From NCBI RefSeq assembly GCF_010500845.1, contig NZ_JAAAMI010000002.1, forward strand, positions 453,461-517,460: a DNA stretch of 64,000 bases, given 5' to 3'. Each line of letters opens with the position of its first letter. Positions within the stretch are counted from its first letter, which is position 1. The notes beneath the pieces are model-generated. The model did not search any database. It saw nothing but the letters and a program-made list of their open reading frames with translations, and had not been told where the DNA came from. Position numbers and translations under genes: made by a program. This stretch comes from Flagellimonas sediminis (GTDB lineage Bacteria > Bacteroidota > Bacteroidia > Flavobacteriales > Flavobacteriaceae). Shown here piece by piece: positions 58,122-64,000 of this stretch.

Positions 58122-58180
58122 GGAGGATTGGCAGAGTGGTCGTCCCGATGGTTATTGGGAGCGGCAATCTTGAAAACAGA
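58122..58180 (+). pseudogene. Broken tRNA-Ser relic
   Basis: GGAGGATTGGCAGAGTGGTC reproduces the acceptor 5' strand and D arm of a tRNA-Ser, and GCGGCAATCTTGAAAACA reproduces the anticodon region with TGA. Between them the D loop holds an 18-bp palindrome-like insert at 58143-58160 (TCCCGAT...ATTGGGA). After the anticodon loop the similarity stops: there is no complementary stem, variable arm, T arm or acceptor 3' strand. It cannot fold as a tRNA and lies 15 bp upstream of an intact tRNA-Ser with the same anticodon. Confidence 0.75.
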
Positions 58181-58194
58181 CCTTCTTTTTTACT

Positions 58195-58279
58195 GGAGAA
58201 ATGGCAGAGTGGTCGAATGCGGCAGTCTTGAAAACTGTTGAGGGTCACACCTCCGGGGGTTCGAATCCCTCTTTCTCCG
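58195..58279 (+). tRNA. tRNA-Ser(UGA)
   Basis: An 85-nt tRNA gene. The acceptor stem pairs GGAGAAA (58195-58201) with TTTCTCC (58272-58278), with discriminator G. The D arm, an anticodon stem with loop CTTGAAA (anticodon TGA at 58229-58231), a long class II variable arm (TGAGGGTCACACCTC region) and the T arm GGGGGTTCGAATCCCTC are all present. CCA is not encoded. A terminator follows 11 bp downstream and a tyrosine recombinase gene starts 220 bp downstream. Confidence 0.97.
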
Positions 58280-58289
58280 CTTAATGACG

Positions 58290-58499: not shown

Positions 58500-59639
58500 A
58501 TGGAAAAGCCCGTTGTTTTATTCTCAAAATCCAACTATGAGGGACAGGTAGTTCTCCTTGTGAATTTTCCAAGCAATTTGAAATTGCATGGATATTTAAA
58601 GAAGTTTAATGGTATTATTTGGAGTAAATCTCTTGGGGCATTTTACCTGCCTTTTTCCAAGGCAATAACCAATGCCTTGTTCCAATATCTCAGAGCGGAA
58701 AATTATTATATTGACTATTCTGCGTTAACCACTGGAAAATCATCCAATGTAAATACTGAGAAAATCAAAAAAGTGGATGCTGGGCACCGAATAGTCAAAA
58801 AAGTCAAACTTAGTATTGATTACTTTAAAACTTGGATGAGCCAAAAACGCTATAGTGAGAATACAATCAGGACTTATGAAGGGATGCTGCTTATATTCTT
58901 TCGGTTTCATTTCCCAAAGACGGAGTTGGAAATTACAGAAAAAGATATTGTCACTTTCAATACTGATTATATTTTGGCCAATGGGTTCTCATATACTTAC
59001 CAAAACCAAGCAATAAATGCCATTAAACTTTTTTACCGCCAACAAGGGAAAACACAATTGTTACCAGAAAATTTGGAACGTCCTAAAAAAACAAAGAAGC
59101 TGCCCGAGGTATTGAGTGTTGAGGAAATCCAGCTAATAATTCAGAATACAACGAACCTAAAGCACAAAACCTTGATCAGCTTACTTTATTCCTGTGGTCT
59201 AAGAATTGGAGAAGCACTAAAACTCAAGGTGAAGGATATTGACAACAAAAGGAGGTCCATGCATATCAAATCAGCGAAAGGCTCCAAGGACAGGTATGTT
59301 CCAATACCAATTAGGATGATTGATTTACTGAATAAATACATGGTCCGCTATACTCCCAATGATTTTGTTTTTGAAGGTCAAAATGGCGGAAAATATTCGG
59401 CTGTGAGTGCACGTCAGATCTTACAACGTTCTTTACATTTATCCAAAATTGAAAGGTCAATTACCTTGCATACTTTACGTCACAGTCATGCTACGCATTT
59501 ATTAGAAAATGGTACAGATATAAGATATATACAAGAGCTACTGGGCCATAATAGCCCCAAAACCACCATGATCTACACTCATGTTAGCACCACAAGTCTG
59601 GACAAAATAAAGAATCCGTTTGATGAGTTTGAGATTTAA
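58500..59639 (+). CDS. Tyrosine recombinase adjoining the cassette array (non-IntI integrase)
   Basis: A 379-residue site-specific recombinase. An N-terminal extension of about 100 residues (FSKSNYEGQVVLLVNFPSN...) precedes the SAM-like core-binding domain (YFKTWMSQKRYSENTIRTYE, about 108-127). The catalytic set is complete: Arg in YSCGLRIGEAL, Lys in SAKGSKDRYVP, HxxR in LHTLRHSHATH, His in LLGHNSPKTT and the nucleophile in MIYTHVS. The C-terminus IKNPFDEF resembles the end of IntI1 (RSPLD), but the roughly 40-residue extra block that IntI carries before HxxR is absent: only about 60 residues separate KGSKDR from HTLRH. It points towards the array, with a hairpin site directly after its stop. 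It probably excises and inserts the cassettes. Confidence 0.9.
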   Translation: MEKPVVLFSKSNYEGQVVLLVNFPSNLKLHGYLKKFNGIIWSKSLGAFYLPFSKAITNALFQYLRAENYYIDYSALTTGKSSNVNTEKIKKVDAGHRIVKKVKLSIDYFKTWMSQKRYSENTIRTYEGMLLIFFRFHFPKTELEITEKDIVTFNTDYILANGFSYTYQNQAINAIKLFYRQQGKTQLLPENLERPKKTKKLPEVLSVEEIQLIIQNTTNLKHKTLISLLYSCGLRIGEALKLKVKDIDNKRRSMHIKSAKGSKDRYVPIPIRMIDLLNKYMVRYTPNDFVFEGQNGGKYSAVSARQILQRSLHLSKIERSITLHTLRHSHATHLLENGTDIRYIQELLGHNSPKTTMIYTHVSTTSLDKIKNPFDEFEI

Positions 59640-59727
59640 TATAGAAAACAACCCAAATCATCGCTTTTATTCCTATTTTGGGTGTATAGAGATGTATTAT
59701 ACGTTTCTATAAACAAGTTGTGCGGCA
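59640..59727. other. Candidate primary attachment site (attI-like)
   Basis: Directly after the recombinase stop, TATAGAAA (59640-59647) mirrors TTTCTATA (59704-59711), and inside this ACCCAAA (59651-59657) mirrors TTTGGGT (59677-59683). The first cassette end GTTGTGCGGCATTT starts at 59717, so the crossover would be between 59717 and 59718. Unlike the five downstream sites it lacks the AGACC element before GTT. The inner hairpin could also end the recombinase transcript. Confidence 0.55.
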
Positions 59728-59775
59728 TTTACCAACGACACTGCAAAATTGATAACTTGATTAAGATAATAAGAC

Positions 59776-60012
59776 ATGTCTACACAAATTTGTCCGAAAT
59801 GTAAAGCAAATTCTTTTACCTGGCATATTGATGATGACGTAAACCTAACCTCTTGGGGCTGCTATGATTGTGGATATATAGCTTATGAGGATGAATCTTT
59901 TGAGCGAGAATGTTCAAATTGTGGAAAAAAAACTGAAAGTAGATTGGAAGACAAAGAGAAAAAATATTGGTGGTGTTGTTCATGTAATAGGATAACTGAC
60001 TATGAATTATAA
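59776..60012 (+). CDS. Cassette 1, gene a: small zinc-ribbon protein
   Basis: A 78-residue protein made of two or three zinc ribbons. Cysteine pairs occur as CPKC (residues 6-9), CYDC (about 29-32), CSNC (about 46-49) and CCSC (about 67-70). It has no other domain. It lies 58 nt inside cassette 1 and its end overlaps the next gene by 11 nt, so this cassette carries two coupled genes. Function unknown; nucleic-acid or protein binding is possible. Confidence 0.7.
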   Translation: MSTQICPKCKANSFTWHIDDDVNLTSWGCYDCGYIAYEDESFERECSNCGKKTESRLEDKEKKYWWCCSCNRITDYEL

Positions 60013-60538
60013 TTTTAAAATATTACCATTTGTTCTGATTTCAATAACACTTGTGAATTGCTCACGGATTAAAAATAAGACTGACGATATAACCAATAAA
60101 GTCAAGTCAAAGACAAAAAAGGAAATAAAAAAACAAACAGATAAAGTTGTTGATAAGGTATTTCCACCTTTTGACAGTGACAAAGCTGATACAGAAAATA
60201 ATAAAAGAAGATTTAAGGATTTTATAAAAGTTGAGTTGACAGAGGATGTTAAAAACATTTATTGCTTTGATGATGCGATAGGAATTGACGCTGATTACAT
60301 GTTTTCATTTACTTGTAACTCACAGACATCTGATAAGATTATTAAAACCCACAATTTGACCAGAGATACTAATAACTCAGATAATGGATTTAATCTCCAG
60401 CATGACTTTGATTGGTGGGATAAAGATAAAATCTCACAACTCGTTAAATATAGCTGGACAAATGGAGGTCAGTATTATAAGTATTATTGGTTTGACAATG
60501 AGAATAATAAGGCATATTATTTTGAATTTGACATGTAA
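60002..60538 (+). CDS. Cassette 1, gene b: putative lipoprotein
   Basis: A 178-residue protein with a lipoprotein signal peptide (residues 1-20, lipobox ending LVNC). A lysine-rich segment (KNKTDDITNKVKSKTKKEI, about 24-42) follows, then a mixed domain with YCFDDAIGIDADYMFSFTC and a tryptophan/tyrosine-rich end. I do not recognise a family. It overlaps the zinc-ribbon gene by 11 nt and ends 18 bp before the paired end of attC site 1. Confidence 0.65.
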   Translation: MNYNFKILPFVLISITLVNCSRIKNKTDDITNKVKSKTKKEIKKQTDKVVDKVFPPFDSDKADTENNKRRFKDFIKVELTEDVKNIYCFDDAIGIDADYMFSFTCNSQTSDKIIKTHNLTRDTNNSDNGFNLQHDFDWWDKDKISQLVKYSWTNGGQYYKYYWFDNENNKAYYFEFDM

Positions 60539-60556
60539 AAATTTAATACTAAACGA

Positions 60557-60694
60557 CCGCACAACACGCGGTAAAAAACATTGGGGGTTTGGGTGGTATG
60601 GCGAGCCTTACGGCTCGTATCGTTTCCCGTGCACCAGGATACGACCGCAGCTCGAAATCCCCAACGATTTCTTACCGCGAGACCGTTGTAACAC
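60557..60694 (+). repeat. attC-like site 1
   Basis: A 138-bp hairpin site. The left end CCGCACAAC (60557-60565) matches the start of cassette 1 in reverse complement. CGCGGTAA (60567-60574) pairs with TTACCGCG (60672-60679), CATTGGGG (60579-60586) with CCCCAACG (60659-60666), and CGAGCC with GGCTCG in the apical part. AGACC (60680-60684) stays unpaired before GTTGTAACAC. The crossover G|TT falls at 60685/60686. Confidence 0.8.
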
Positions 60695-60699
60695 ATTTG

Positions 60700-61194
60700 A
60701 TGAAAACCCAAGAAACATTGACAAACGAAGAATTAATTGATTATGTCTACTATGATATTGCAGGAAAATATCTGAATGAAAAAATCAATGATTGGAGTCA
60801 AACTAAAATGTGGTACGACACAGTTTTTGAATTATCAGAACCTGTTCGATATAGGTATGGAATTGGAGTTTTAAATATGCAAGTAATGAATGGTGGATTT
60901 GAACAGTATTTCGACAATGATTATGGAATTTTTGCAGAGGAAACGCTAAATGGACTGAAAAAAATTGGAGCTGAATTGACTTTTGCACTTTTAAAAAGTG
61001 CAATCAAAATATTAAATAAACATAAAGAACCGCAAACTGACCTGTTTGAATTCATAACCCAGAATAAATATTGGGAAAATGAAGAAATAGAACAAGAACT
61101 CGACCGATTAGATGATGAATATTACAAACTCGAAGAAAAAGAGAATTTGACTGAATTACTCGGGAATTATTTGCGGAGCTGTGAAATAAAATAA
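60700..61194 (+). CDS. Cassette 2: DMP19/DUF4375-type protein
   Basis: A 164-residue, strongly acidic protein. The segment VLNMQVMNGGFEQYFDNDYG followed by LNGLKKIGAE is the core signature of the DUF4375 (DMP19) family. The founding member in Neisseria is a DNA-mimic protein that binds a repressor; most relatives are uncharacterised and many sit in accessory regions. I start at ATG 60700, 15 nt after the cassette boundary; a longer frame would read through the attC site. The C-terminus is rich in Glu and Asp. Confidence 0.75.
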   Translation: MKTQETLTNEELIDYVYYDIAGKYLNEKINDWSQTKMWYDTVFELSEPVRYRYGIGVLNMQVMNGGFEQYFDNDYGIFAEETLNGLKKIGAELTFALLKSAIKILNKHKEPQTDLFEFITQNKYWENEEIEQELDRLDDEYYKLEEKENLTELLGNYLRSCEIK

Positions 61195-61198
61195 AAAC

Positions 61199-61337
61199 GT
61201 GTTACAACAATGTATAACCGCAATTACGGCGGATTCGACTACGTCCGAATCCACTCGGAATTGCTAACGTCAGTGCCAAACCGAAAATTAACGCATATTA
61301 ACCCGTAAATGACGGTTATACGAGACCGTTGTGGTGC
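61199..61337 (+). repeat. attC-like site 2
   Basis: A 139-bp site. The left end GTGTTACAAC (61199-61208) is the exact reverse complement of the start of cassette 2, GTTGTAACAC. GTATAACCG (61212-61220) pairs with CGGTTATAC (61313-61321), and GGATTCG with CGAATCC in the apical part. GAGACC (61322-61327) precedes GTTGTGGTG. The crossover falls at 61328/61329. It starts 5 bp after the cassette 2 stop. Confidence 0.8.
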
Positions 61338-61356
61338 ATTTAAACAAACCCTAAAA

Positions 61357-61962
61357 ATGAATTTAAAATTTGCCAAATATTTGATAATTATGCTGCTTTT
61401 GGCAAATTGTGGAAAGCAAGAAACTGAAATAAAGAATTATGGATTTCCAAAAAGCGAAAGTGGAAGTTTAAATGTATCTCTTAAATTATCGGAATTTAAA
61501 AATTATGGAAAACTCATTGACAGAATTCGTGAAATAACCTGCAATGATAGTATTCCCAGAATAGTCATTAAAGAAGAAAATATAGTTCGGAATATTTATC
61601 CGATTGAACATTGCGAACCGATGATTTTTGACCCAGAAGGAAAACACTATGTTTCTTTTACAAAAGGTAAATTTTATAAAGACCATTTTAGCAAAGAAAT
61701 TAAGGCGGATTCTTTGGATTGGACTTTAAAGAACGACTTTGCCTATTTCAAGGTAGAAGACGAAACTGATGTTATCAAAAGTTATTTTATGATTATGGAA
61801 TCTAATCGGGACGAAAAAATTAACGGAATTGAAAATTTCCTAAATGAATTAACTCAAGAATATGACAAACTAAAAACTGAATTGGAACTCAATATATCAT
61901 TTTGGGAAGTTGTGCCTTATTTGCCACCATCTGAAATAGAGAATGACAAACAAACTGAATAA
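61357..61962 (+). CDS. Cassette 3: putative lipoprotein
   Basis: A 201-residue protein with a lipoprotein signal peptide (residues 1-18, lipobox LLANC). The mature part has a beta-strand-rich region (GSLNVSLKLSEFKNYGKLI, RIVIKEENIV) and a C-terminal helix (IENFLNELTQEYDKLKTEL). I do not recognise a family. I start at ATG 61357, 28 nt after the boundary; the longer frame from 61309 would begin inside the attC site. It ends 8 bp before the left end of attC site 3. Confidence 0.65.
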   Translation: MNLKFAKYLIIMLLLANCGKQETEIKNYGFPKSESGSLNVSLKLSEFKNYGKLIDRIREITCNDSIPRIVIKEENIVRNIYPIEHCEPMIFDPEGKHYVSFTKGKFYKDHFSKEIKADSLDWTLKNDFAYFKVEDETDVIKSYFMIMESNRDEKINGIENFLNELTQEYDKLKTELELNISFWEVVPYLPPSEIENDKQTE

Positions 61963-61970
61963 AAAAACGA

Positions 61971-62106
61971 CACCACAACAATGGCTATAAGTAATTGCTT
62001 GTTCTCACCTACTTCTGAAAATCCTTGCGGATTTTCAGTTTGGTGTGTACTTGCAAAGTTAAGTGCTAAACCACGCAACTACTCATAGCCGAGACCGTTA
62101 CCTGTA
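61971..62106 (+). repeat. attC-like site 3
   Basis: A 136-bp site. The left end CACCACAAC (61971-61979) complements the cassette 3 start GTTGTGGTG. GGCTATAAGTAATTGC (61983-61998) pairs with GCAACTACTCATAGCC (62075-62090) in 16 positions including two G-T pairs. An inner perfect hairpin joins CTGAAAATCC (62015-62024) and GGATTTTCAG (62029-62038). GAGACC (62091-62096) precedes GTTACCTGTA. The crossover falls at 62097/62098. It is nearly identical to site 5. Confidence 0.85.
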
Positions 62107-62109
62107 ATT

Positions 62110-62643
62110 TTGAAAAAACCTTTACAAATATTGACATTATGGATTTTTGGTGTCGGAATTGGATGGGCACAAACGGAATTTCCTTTTTTCGAGCAAAACG
62201 CGTTTGACTTCTATGCGAAAGAGATACTTAAAGTGAATCCTGTAAAAAAAAGAATAAGCGTTTATAGATATTACTTTGAATTTCAAGATTCTACTAGACA
62301 TTTTGTGGAAGGAGAATGTTTGGAAAATCCCATATTTAAAAATCAATTGAAAAAAGTTGATGAAGCTGAGTACAAACAATTACATATCGATTCAGACAAA
62401 TTTGAATTGGACTTAAGCAAAATTGACAAAAAACAATTTAGAATCAGGAGAAATGGACGAGGCAACTTTCCTAAATTATTCATAAGCTATCCGATGGTTT
62501 CTACTAAAGACCCAACAAGATTTTTTGTTAATATCTATGAGTCATATGAAAGACAAGGGAATAACTATCATATAGAATTAAATGATAAAGGAAAAGTAAT
62601 CGATTGGTGTCACTCTCGACATGTTACAATAACAATTCATTAA
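62110..62643 (+). CDS. Cassette 4: exported hypothetical protein, TTG start
   Basis: A 177-residue protein with a signal peptide (residues 1-21, ending IGWAQ). The start is TTG at 62110, since it is the only start codon before the signal peptide and lies 12 nt after the cassette boundary. The mature part has FAKEI-like helical text, FRIRRNGRGNFPKLFISYP and a short C-terminal beta segment (YHIELNDKGKVIDW). No family is recognised. Its stop is 5 bp before the left end of attC site 4. Confidence 0.65.
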   Translation: MKKPLQILTLWIFGVGIGWAQTEFPFFEQNAFDFYAKEILKVNPVKKRISVYRYYFEFQDSTRHFVEGECLENPIFKNQLKKVDEAEYKQLHIDSDKFELDLSKIDKKQFRIRRNGRGNFPKLFISYPMVSTKDPTRFFVNIYESYERQGNNYHIELNDKGKVIDWCHSRHVTITIH

Positions 62644-62648
62644 AAAAC

Positions 62649-62787
62649 TACAGGTAACACTGGCTATAATTCATTGCTGCTTTATTGCTAAATTTAAACC
62701 TATCAACCATTAACAGGGCCCGATTTCTCCCGGACAAATCCTGCCGGATTTATCCACGCCGAAATCATAGCCAAACCGTTGTGCGTA
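62649..62787 (+). repeat. attC-like site 4
   Basis: A 139-bp site. The left end TACAGGTAAC (62649-62658) is the exact reverse complement of the cassette 4 start GTTACCTGTA. TGGCTATAATTC (62661-62672) pairs with GAAATCATAGCCA (62761-62773) with one bulge. AAACC precedes GTTGTGCGTA in place of the AGACC of the other sites. The apical part holds GGACAAATCC/GGATTTATCC. The crossover falls at 62778/62779. Confidence 0.8.
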
Positions 62788-62796
62788 ATTTGAAAA

Positions 62797-63528
62797 ATGA
62801 AATATTTAGTAATTTTTATAGTATTATTTCTTCTTCCAACCTTCGTTTTATCTCAAAATGAAAAAGATGTTTATGAAGCAAAAACTGAGCAAATTAATCC
62901 ACAGAAGATTGATTCGCTTTGCTACGAAATATACTCTCAAAATAATTTGGAAAATCTCGAATATTCATTCAAATATATAGACGATATTGAAAAATGCGAA
63001 AATGTGATAACGACCAATTATTGGGCGAATGACATTAAAGTTAACTTTGTATTTGAAAATGGTAATCTCTCTTATTTAACACCTTCAAAATTCGATGATT
63101 TTAGAAGAAGTTTCTATCAAGAAAAGATATTGAATGTTCTTGTCTATTTAAACGATAAGGAAGTTAAAAGACGTTTCTTTAAAGCAAAATCATCGAAACC
63201 TTTTACATTTTACAAAACAAAAAACTTCATAACCACAACCATTTTTTTTGAAAGATTTGACCGATTTTTAATTTTTGATTATTACTTTCAAAACGATAAA
63301 TTAATAAAGGTTAGCATTAGAGAATTAAATCCTGAATTTCAATGGGATAAAATTAATTATACTGATTTCTACTACAATAATTCAAAAATTGTTTCCCGGA
63401 ATTTCTATCAATCATTAATGGATGGACGATTTTCATTAGACAGAAAAATTAATGACGAAGATTTAATTAAAATATCAACTGACTTATTAGAAAAAATAAA
63501 AACTACGCACAACAATGGCTATAAGTAA
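62797..63528 (+). CDS. Cassette 5: exported hypothetical protein reading into its attC site
   Basis: A 243-residue protein with a signal peptide (residues 1-19, ending FVLSQ). The mature part is rich in aromatic residues and beta strands (VNFVFENGNLSYL, NFITTTIFFERFDRFLIFDYYF in part). No family is recognised. It starts 18 nt after the cassette boundary. Its last eight codons (TTHNNGYK) and stop lie inside attC site 5, so the recombination site encodes the C-terminus and exchange would not alter it, because the crossover is 100 bp further. Confidence 0.7.
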   Translation: MKYLVIFIVLFLLPTFVLSQNEKDVYEAKTEQINPQKIDSLCYEIYSQNNLENLEYSFKYIDDIEKCENVITTNYWANDIKVNFVFENGNLSYLTPSKFDDFRRSFYQEKILNVLVYLNDKEVKRRFFKAKSSKPFTFYKTKNFITTTIFFERFDRFLIFDYYFQNDKLIKVSIRELNPEFQWDKINYTDFYYNNSKIVSRNFYQSLMDGRFSLDRKINDEDLIKISTDLLEKIKTTHNNGYK

Positions 63529-63640
63529 TTGCTTGCTCTCGCCTACTTCTGAAAATCCTCGCGAATTTTCAGTTTGGTGTGTACTTGCAAAGTTTAATGC
63601 TAACCCACGCAACTACTCATAGCCGAGACCGTTACCACAC
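63504..63640 (+). repeat. attC-like site 5
   Basis: A 137-bp site. The left end TACGCACAAC (63504-63513) is the exact reverse complement of the cassette 5 start GTTGTGCGTA. GGCTATAAGTAATTGC (63517-63532) pairs with GCAACTACTCATAGCC (63609-63624). GAGACC (63625-63630) precedes GTTACCACAC. The crossover falls at 63631/63632. About nine of ten bases agree with site 3 over the full length, although the flanking cassettes are unrelated. Confidence 0.85.
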
Positions 63641-63670
63641 ATTTGAGAAAATCTATAACGAAATAAAATT

Positions 63671-63880
63671 ATGGGAATATTTGACTTTTTCAAGACAAAA
63701 CGAAACGAAAAATCTAATCAAAATCCGATTGATGAAACGCAATTGGAATTTATTGAAAAATCTACAAATAATGCTGAACGACTGATTTCTAGTTTCAATA
63801 AAAGACTAGATGATGGATTGGATTATAGCGAATCAAGTTTGACCGTTTTAGACGAGGAGATTTTGAGCTTATTTGGATAG
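63671..63880 (+). CDS. Cassette 6: probably truncated hypothetical protein
   Basis: A 69-residue acidic protein starting MGIFDFFKTKRNEK, with the helical segment STNNAERLISSFNKRLDDGLDYSESSLTVLDEEI. The N-terminus looks like that of a longer soluble protein, and the frame ends abruptly at a TAG followed by GC-richer sequence. No attC-type end (expected to contain TGTGGTAAC) is found after it. It may be the intact N-terminal part of a gene cut by an insertion or deletion at about 63880. Confidence 0.5.
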   Translation: MGIFDFFKTKRNEKSNQNPIDETQLEFIEKSTNNAERLISSFNKRLDDGLDYSESSLTVLDEEILSLFG

Positions 63881-64000
63881 GGCGGTCAATGTATACCACC
63901 TGCGGCGGATGAAAGTGAGCAGTGCAAATCAAGTGCACGAGATCGACTCATTTTGGTGCTGAAGTTAACGTTTATTTTTAATTTTTTTTCTCATTGATTC
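63881..64000. other. Sequence after the array, possibly an insertion-sequence end
   Basis: From 63881 the base composition changes (GGCGGTCAATGTATACCACC and a GC-rich CTGCGGCGG). The GGTCAATGT word recalls the repeated terminal boxes of IS21-family elements in Bacteroidota. No cassette end, open frame or tRNA is visible up to the window end. The identification is tentative because the body of any element would lie outside the window. Confidence 0.25.

Follow-up and report, generated by a model that had tools for sequence, protein, structure and literature searches.

We analysed a window of 64,000 nucleotides (nt) of Flagellimonas sediminis DNA (assembly GCF_010500845.1, contig NZ_JAAAMI010000002.1, positions 453,461 to 517,460 of the forward strand), in which a tyrosine recombinase gene is followed by an integron-like array of gene cassettes. 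An earlier note had read this locus as a recombinase followed by six co-oriented cassettes and five structured sites. The recombinase gene, five structured sites (126–129 nt) and six cassette starts are present as claimed, the sixth cassette as a start only, and an attI-like site can be added to that account. The window ends where contig C12 of this genome ends, so the array is cut by the assembly (genomes, contigs and loci carry our working labels, beginning with G, C and L). The features of the platform, with their open reading frames (ORFs), are as follows.

58500..59639, + strand: tyrosine recombinase of 379 amino acids, catalytic roles as generally known for the family
59640..59719, + strand: attI-like site, an imperfect inverted repeat and TATAAACAAG|TT, from a seven-locus alignment
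59718..60685, + strand: cassette 1, two ORFs, 59776-60012 (zinc-ribbon-like) and 60002-60538 (lipoprotein-like by a reading of the sequence), Pfam matches below cut-off; ends match over 9 nt
60557..60693, + strand: site 1, R'' CCGCACAAC ... GAGACC G|TT
60686..61328, + strand: cassette 2, ORF 60700-61194 of the DMP19 family; ends match over 10 nt
61199..61337, + strand: site 2, from end matching, fold and covariance model
61329..62097, + strand: cassette 3, ORF 61357-61962, no family assigned; ends match over 9 nt
61971..62105, + strand: site 3, from end matching, fold and covariance model
62098..62778, + strand: cassette 4, ORF 62110-62643 with a TTG start, no family assigned; ends match over 10 nt
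62649..62786, + strand: site 4, from end matching and covariance model, the weakest fold of the five
62779..63631, + strand: cassette 5, ORF 62797-63528, no family assigned; ends match over 10 nt
63504..63639, + strand: site 5, from end matching, fold and covariance model
63632..64000, + strand: cassette 6, start only, ORF 63671-63880; no 3' site detected before the contig end

Cuts were placed at the G of GTT, at positions 59717, 60685, 61328, 62097, 62778 and 63631. For cassettes 1 to 5, the exact reverse complement of the initial 9–10 nt was found 126–129 nt before the next cut, each cassette end matching its own other end and not those of its neighbours. Self-matching ends are the defining logic of integron cassettes: because its own ends match, a cassette circularised on its own would have a single site with perfect pairing. 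The site standing in a row between two neighbours is a hybrid of both cassettes, paired by a median of only 4 nt. A finder script that defined a cassette by matching ends (at least 8 nt required) and a stem retrieved 307 cassettes from 55 of 67 loci, versus 10 from order-1 Markov resamples and 25 from reversed loci, and none from either strand of window positions 1–58499. With loci added later, the total reached 366 cassettes in 66 of 84 loci, mostly from Flavobacteriaceae. The finder may take false chains: at L156 two starts of one type were listed, one of them inside the recombinase frame, and the two cassettes listed for L111 are far away from the best site. Median cassette length was 830 nt, and the longest ORF was co-oriented with the array in 344 of the 366. 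Ends matched by 9–10 nt in 350 cassettes, given the demanded minimum of 8, and the in-array match between R'' and R', which was not selected for, was 3–4 nt in 256 of 364 sites. At positions 10–21 of the 366 cassettes, MAT followed by an A-rich run is common after the 10-nt box, with a translation start region and a part of the site as candidates. The motif TAnnTTTG, generally given as the −7 promoter motif of Bacteroidota, was present at only 3 of the 366 cassette starts.

The idea that unit ends and hairpin sites follow integron logic was borne out by this matching and by bottom-strand folds better than those of shuffled sequences in four of the five window sites (z −4.4, −3.2, −3.6, and −2.8). 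A covariance model, R1, built from 21 sites (two of them from the window), recovered all five window sites at an expectation value (E) of at most 1.7e-6, the next match having E 0.42. Within the 21-site alignment, both sides change in 12 of 19 pairs, which represents covariation, and 86.4% of cells are paired versus 65.2% after shuffling and 26–34% after sliding, the consensus structure being drawn from the same 21 sites, which flatters the slid control. The distance from AAC to GTT in 364 sites was 106–125 nt in 286, 166–195 nt in 52, 40–75 nt in 7, and elsewhere in 19. These spans step by about 63–64 nt (about 55, 118, and 182 nt from AAC to GTT); one idea is that the step equals three helical turns of the hairpin stem. 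The classical attC core boxes are lacking: RYYYAAC and GTTRRRY occurred together in 2 of the 364 sites, and only AAC and GTT are general. No Rfam family was found for the sites, and since their similarity is greater in structure than in sequence, a plain repeat search returned just one site's stem.

The two strands of the sites are clearly asymmetric. In 240 sites the unpaired stretches have their usual lengths of 3 and 6 nt; of these, 195 carry a top-strand A.C at stem position 7 and 170 carry one at position 12. Over 3840 top-strand stem cells there were 483 A.C against 7 G.T, and over 85 distinct stems 171 against 7; since the stem finder scores Watson-Crick pairs only, it introduces no bias of A.C over G.T. 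As a top-strand A.C is a G.T wobble on the bottom strand, the bottom strand makes the better hairpin and should be the one that folds. The bottom strand folded better in 262 of 285 sites and the top strand in 20 (median −3.0 kcal/mol), while mid-cassette controls showed the opposite, with the bottom strand better in 95 and the top strand in 260 of 364. By predicted folds and covariation, the sites are therefore imperfect palindromes that fold on the bottom strand, as integron sites do. As candidate landmarks, this strand offers two conserved G.T wobbles in most stems and, as judged by eye, an extra base in some. Copies of one cassette gene were also seen with the same start and R'' box and a different site interior, as if interiors had been swapped.

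The attI-like site opens cassette 1 at 78 nt past the recombinase stop, and its cut would fall between G59717 and T59718. Seven loci were aligned: the window, the second copy of this genome on contig C13, and L029–L033, which are Allomuricauda, Muricauda, Flagellimonas, and Maribacter records. Behind the recombinase, the window and L029–L033 have in common a stretch with an imperfect inverted repeat that is conserved as far as CAAG, and their sequences diverge from G|TT onwards (L029 reads CAAGATGG); of this stretch, C13 has only the final part. TATA..GTT was found within 220 nt of the recombinase stop in 42 of 47 loci, a few of these matches (e.g., L066, L093, L097) looking like chance. As in integrons, an attI-like site thus lies beside the recombinase gene and the cassettes begin there.

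The recombinase consists of an N-terminal alpha/beta domain (about residues 1–78), a core-binding domain (about 100–181), and a catalytic domain (about 190–377), and R235, K260, H324, R327, H350, and Y359 are invariant in 67 homologues. Pfam recognised phage integrase and SAM-like domains. The best NCBIfam match was NF040815 (206 bits, cut-off 220), whose product name is site-specific tyrosine recombinase/integron integrase. The IntI model TIGR02249 gave 197 bits and did not reach its cut-off of 265, nor were the equivalog cut-offs of XerD (185 bits, cut-off 330) and XerC (178 bits, cut-off 335) reached; L003 of the same genome lies above the XerD cut-off with 341 bits. The earlier note had described an enzyme that lacks the IntI-specific block and carries an extra N-terminal domain. 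The absence of the block was corroborated: positions 180–238 of the IntI profile are unmatched in the family proteins, the 70 residues 178–247 of IntI4 (2a3v) face 27 residues in the window recombinase, and an AlphaFold2 model (mean predicted local distance difference test score 81, predicted template modelling score 0.50) has no inserted helix at the I2 place. The I2 or additional domain that marks IntI is accordingly missing from the window enzyme. The added N-terminal alpha/beta domain appears in the model and is real in the window enzyme, but it is not a general trait, being absent from L090 and from the Balneolaceae enzymes. Foldseek ranked IntI4 2a3v as the best match for the model (E 2.9e-15), followed by XerA.

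IntI formed one clade in both phylogenetic trees (100/99 and 100/100), with the window recombinase outside it. Together, IntI and the I2-less recombinases were separated from XerC and XerD in the first tree (100/99) and from XerC, XerD, and XerA in the second (100/99), where two XerA and four XerC/D rows fell outside the clade of IntI and cassette recombinases. IntI was sister to the I2-less set in the tree without XerA rows (96/91) and nested in that set, with weak support (54/80), in the tree with them. An early filter dropped rows with E above 1e-30 or at most 180 residues; seven Flavobacteriaceae rows, X_L004, and C_L153 were dropped from the tree without XerA, and fourteen Flavobacteriaceae rows and C_L153 from the tree with it. 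A one-clade test on 61 rows gave an approximately unbiased p value of 0.03, the tested group omitting S_L144, S_L145, C_L152, and X_L111, which lie inside it, so that the result says at most that those four rows belong in the group. Some members of the I2-less set have no known array, among them that of G398, where R1 gave no match. Contig C13 encodes another recombinase of the family (L020, 255–1343; 43% identity), which has an attI-like site and lies 254 bp from a contig end.

Relatives of the recombinase at E ≤ 1e-75 were detected in 51 of 397 family genomes (F. sediminis included) and in 46 of 237 genera, a threshold too strict to judge association by genome. R1 sites were present in 338 of the 397 family genomes at E ≤ 1e-6, with at most 8 candidates scored per genome so that per-genome counts saturate, and, at E ≤ 1e-5, in 63 of the 148 genomes of a phylum-wide draw. 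With sites nearly everywhere, association by genome is a weak test, and local adjacency was used instead. Within 1.5-kb flanks, an R1 site was found at 21 of 29 relatives (L034–L062) and at none of 16 other tyrosine recombinases of the F. sediminis genome (L003–L018). For 35 relatives, 1 kb or more of sequence was available downstream; 32 of them have cassettes, and in 23 the first one found begins within 200 nt of the recombinase stop. The sites thus cluster beside this recombinase family, a check that the earlier note had suggested. The same note had counted a wide occurrence of the sites without any association with the recombinase against its own proposal; this objection is partly true, since the sites are more widespread than the close relatives, among genomes and in several array places, whereas the objections on local association and on cassette boundaries failed.

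Twenty array places were taken from genomes without a close recombinase relative. A more distant recombinase lies at the 5' end of the array in eight (in the first stretch at L105, L115, L117, L119, and L120; after extension at L135, L137, and L138), and two met the contig end (L121, L122). One has a weak recombinase (L111, genome G220, 1643–2668; 174 bits) that is 85 nt from the site and points away from it, as the L115 and L120 recombinases likewise do from their arrays. The L111 enzyme, a diverged member of the clade, groups with the recombinase of the site-less G398. In Balneolaceae, an I2-less recombinase of 280 amino acids without the N-terminal domain is divergent to the arrays, which is the classical layout, and R1 sites were found at four of five loci (L155–L158, not L159). 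Among the genomes of these five loci, true IntI above cut-off was present in G431, G446, G515, and G529 and not in G439. IntI above cut-off occurred in 46 of the 148 phylum genomes, and in none of the 15 family genomes of that draw, F. sediminis included. R1 gave 16 matches in the F. sediminis genome, some of which lie at contig ends (on C10 and at the start of C1), and the array was probably broken by the assembly. Its contigs C10 (L163), C1 (L164), and C12 begin or end in or near sites, and for 17 of 40 relatives a contig end follows the recombinase within 3 kb on its downstream side; the site repeats seem to break assemblies.

Cassette mobility was examined through shared pairs, defined as copies that align over 95% or more of their length at 90% or more identity and have different neighbours. 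Of the 39 such pairs, 15 link two genomes and 24 lie inside a single one; a cassette with six copies in G014 accounts for 15 of these 24, which means that the pairs are not independent. Both flank identities were below 0.5, by a crude measure, in 38 of the 39 pairs, and the match extended to the last base at both ends in 34; as the queries were bare cassettes, pair borders rest on the flanks. When 300-nt flanks were included, full-copy alignments began 1–47 nt before the first G and ended 3–23 nt after the next, with exceptions at the start in one alignment (18 nt after the first G) and one pair (124–127 nt before). Shared site arms would explain the overhangs past G|TT. The expectation that gain and loss have their borders at G|TT therefore agrees with the unrelated flanks and with flanked alignments stopping close to G|TT, and sequence comparison indicates whole cassettes that have moved with their ends at G|TT.

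Near-identical cassettes occur across places, genera, and families with unrelated neighbours. A 735-bp cassette is present twice on contig C10 of F. sediminis at 100% identity. A 1,049-bp cassette is 99.8% identical between G134 and G500, the latter from another family of the class, and 97.5% identical in G468. Its copies (L072 1219-2268; L161 1957-3006; L162 2099-3150, array on the + strand) each stand first at attI, and the adjoining recombinases are 41–47% identical (44% between G134 and G500). A 3,876-bp cassette is 99.3% identical in G274 and G087. The gene of window cassette 2 also forms a cassette in G201 (L115 16900-17541) at 87.6% identity; this alignment stops about 100 nt before the next G, and the site interior differs. 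With regard to cargo, a Pfam scan of 100 cassette ORFs (99 of 110 ORFs plus the window DMP19 ORF) yielded 53 families, the two commonest with two members each and the others with one, and PADLOC showed five families. One cassette at L030 carries a type III restriction-modification pair. The 1,049-bp cassette is predicted to encode a LinB-like nucleotidyltransferase: LinB-like_C matched among the 100 ORFs, and the assignment to this cassette is a reading of the sequence. On a similar reading, the 3,876-bp cassette may encode a cytosine-methyltransferase-like protein. Overall, the cassette pool comprises restriction-modification, putative nucleotidyltransferase, and toxin-like genes, and mostly genes without known function.

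The platform adjoins a tRNA-Ser (TGA) gene (58195..58280, + strand; ARAGORN, Rfam). Directly upstream, at 58123–58194, there is a partial tRNA-Ser-like copy, perhaps the scar of an older insertion, which is present in L033 too. L033 (10000–12650), from Muricauda sp. M10, has the platform at what by eye is the same-looking tRNA-Ser place.

Taken together, these results make it very probable that the locus is an integron-like gene-capture platform, in which an I2-less recombinase probably integrates cassette circles at attI and reshuffles them. We infer from the arrangement that the recombinase acts on the sites and moves the cassettes, and our verdict is that the platform works like an integron and is not a member of the IntI family. 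The bottom strand of a site would be extruded as a hairpin, which the recombinase would cut beside G|TT, joining the cassette to attI, and replication would then resolve the one-strand junction, as in known integrons. The choice of strand would be built into the site itself, whose paired stem positions are A.C on the top strand and G.T wobbles below. The pair of conserved wobbles would stand in for extrahelical bases as landmarks, and no I2 helix would be there to recognise them.

Several observations weigh against this platform reading. Its weakest link is the single-strand step, because an I2-less enzyme is not known to stop the second-strand exchange (PMC7790495, cited, like the other papers here, from excerpts). 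Sites are present in many more family genomes than close recombinase relatives are, and nine of the 20 array places had no recombinase in the 8–18 kb examined upstream (L104, L106, L107, L108 with L136, L110, L112, L113, L114, and L118). Many shared pairs lie within one genome and could be plain duplications. In F. sediminis, the enzyme at work could be the relative encoded on C13, a contig end cuts the window array short, and the fold of site 4 is near chance (z −1.7, 15 of 200 shuffles as good). At the same-looking place in L033, the recombinase gene is broken, next to an attI-like site and two cassettes, of which the second was recognised by eye.

That broken gene and the arrays without a recombinase would also suit a platform that was once functional and is now a fossil in this genome, its arrays changing by ordinary repeat recombination. 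We consider this unlikely, since the window gene is unbroken and encodes the expected catalytic residues, and since the identical cassette pair on C10 points to recent movement, although plain duplication could also explain the pair. It is considerably less probable that the cluster is a classical one moved in trans by a true IntI, the neighbouring recombinase being a bystander. In its favour, the sites behave as attC sites do, integron clusters often lack an integrase (PMC9668308 says this of most archaeal ones), IntI is present in part of the phylum, and some arrays have no recombinase nearby. However, neither F. sediminis nor the other 14 family genomes drawn have IntI above cut-off, the window enzyme falls well below that cut-off, the core boxes are unlike RYYYAAC/GTTRRRY, and cassettes accompany nearly all of the recombinase loci with sufficient downstream sequence. 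R1 found nothing in four phylum IntI loci (L146–L149), where arrays are not established.

We give just as little credence to double-stranded Xer-type modules, that is, dif-like flanked cassettes exchanged as duplex DNA. The recombinase is Xer-like, and Xer-site modules with resistance genes have been described in Acinetobacter (PMC7399989), but stem covariation and the one-sided A.C/G.T pattern make sense only for a folded single strand, and the ends are inverted within each cassette rather than direct repeats. Dispersed palindromic repeats lying by chance between genes would account for the lone sites of this genome (C1:796853 and C23:6213, one match each within 7 kb), but hardly for cassette ends that match each other and not the neighbour's, nor for whole cassettes recurring elsewhere, and this explanation can practically be dismissed. 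Dispersed repeats, duplex dif modules, and a bystander recombinase were rejected on these grounds.

Beyond the gene-capture platform itself, we tentatively suggest a broader scenario, which we think somewhat less likely to be right than wrong: a second, ancient integron lineage without I2, whose sites pick the strand via paired G.T wobbles, which would be the standard platform of Flavobacteriaceae and Balneolaceae, and within or beside which IntI would have arisen by gaining I2. A widespread I2-less platform that follows the cassette logic of integrons would reveal a further mechanism for recombining folded single strands and would make the origin of integrons testable with living relatives. 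It would also imply a large mobile cassette pool in Bacteroidota that searches for IntI or classical attC would likely miss, and assembly breaks at the arrays would have helped to hide them. If the platform reading holds, integron-style gene capture would be broader, and possibly older, than the known integrase.

Among known systems, archaeal XerA and XerC/XerD resemble the window enzyme in their catalytic core, and we know of no cassette array beside them. In the open-access literature, judged mostly from titles and the starts of abstracts and excluding subscription journals and preprints, no report of such a platform was recognised. In the published accounts consulted, integrons depend for their function on the I2 helix and on extrahelical bases (PMC7790495, PMC3053210), the helix reading these bases and blocking the second strand exchange (PMC7790495, PMC8138268). 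The window enzyme resembles the 'Integron-like' subgroup of tyrosine recombinases (Smyshlyaev et al. 2021, PMC8138268) in that it groups with IntI; the excerpts of that paper call the I2 insertion essential for integron function and describe no sites, cassettes, or platforms for members without it. IntegronFinder 2.0 (PMC9024848), as excerpted, gives one complete integron in Bacteroidetes proper, that of Salinibacter ruber M1, which belongs to the same phylum but was found through a search for IntI and attC and presumably has a true IntI. Among the closest known systems are IntI integrons, both the mobile classes and the chromosomal ones (e.g., those of Vibrio). The window platform differs from them in that its recombinase lacks I2, scores below the IntI cut-off, and stands outside the IntI clade, in core boxes that do not follow RYYYAAC/GTTRRRY, in the paired G.T wobbles as putative landmarks, and in a recombinase gene that is here usually co-oriented with the array. 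With IntI integrons it shares the attI by the integrase, the co-oriented cassette array, and hairpin sites with matching R'' and R', a G|TT boundary, and a better-folding bottom strand.

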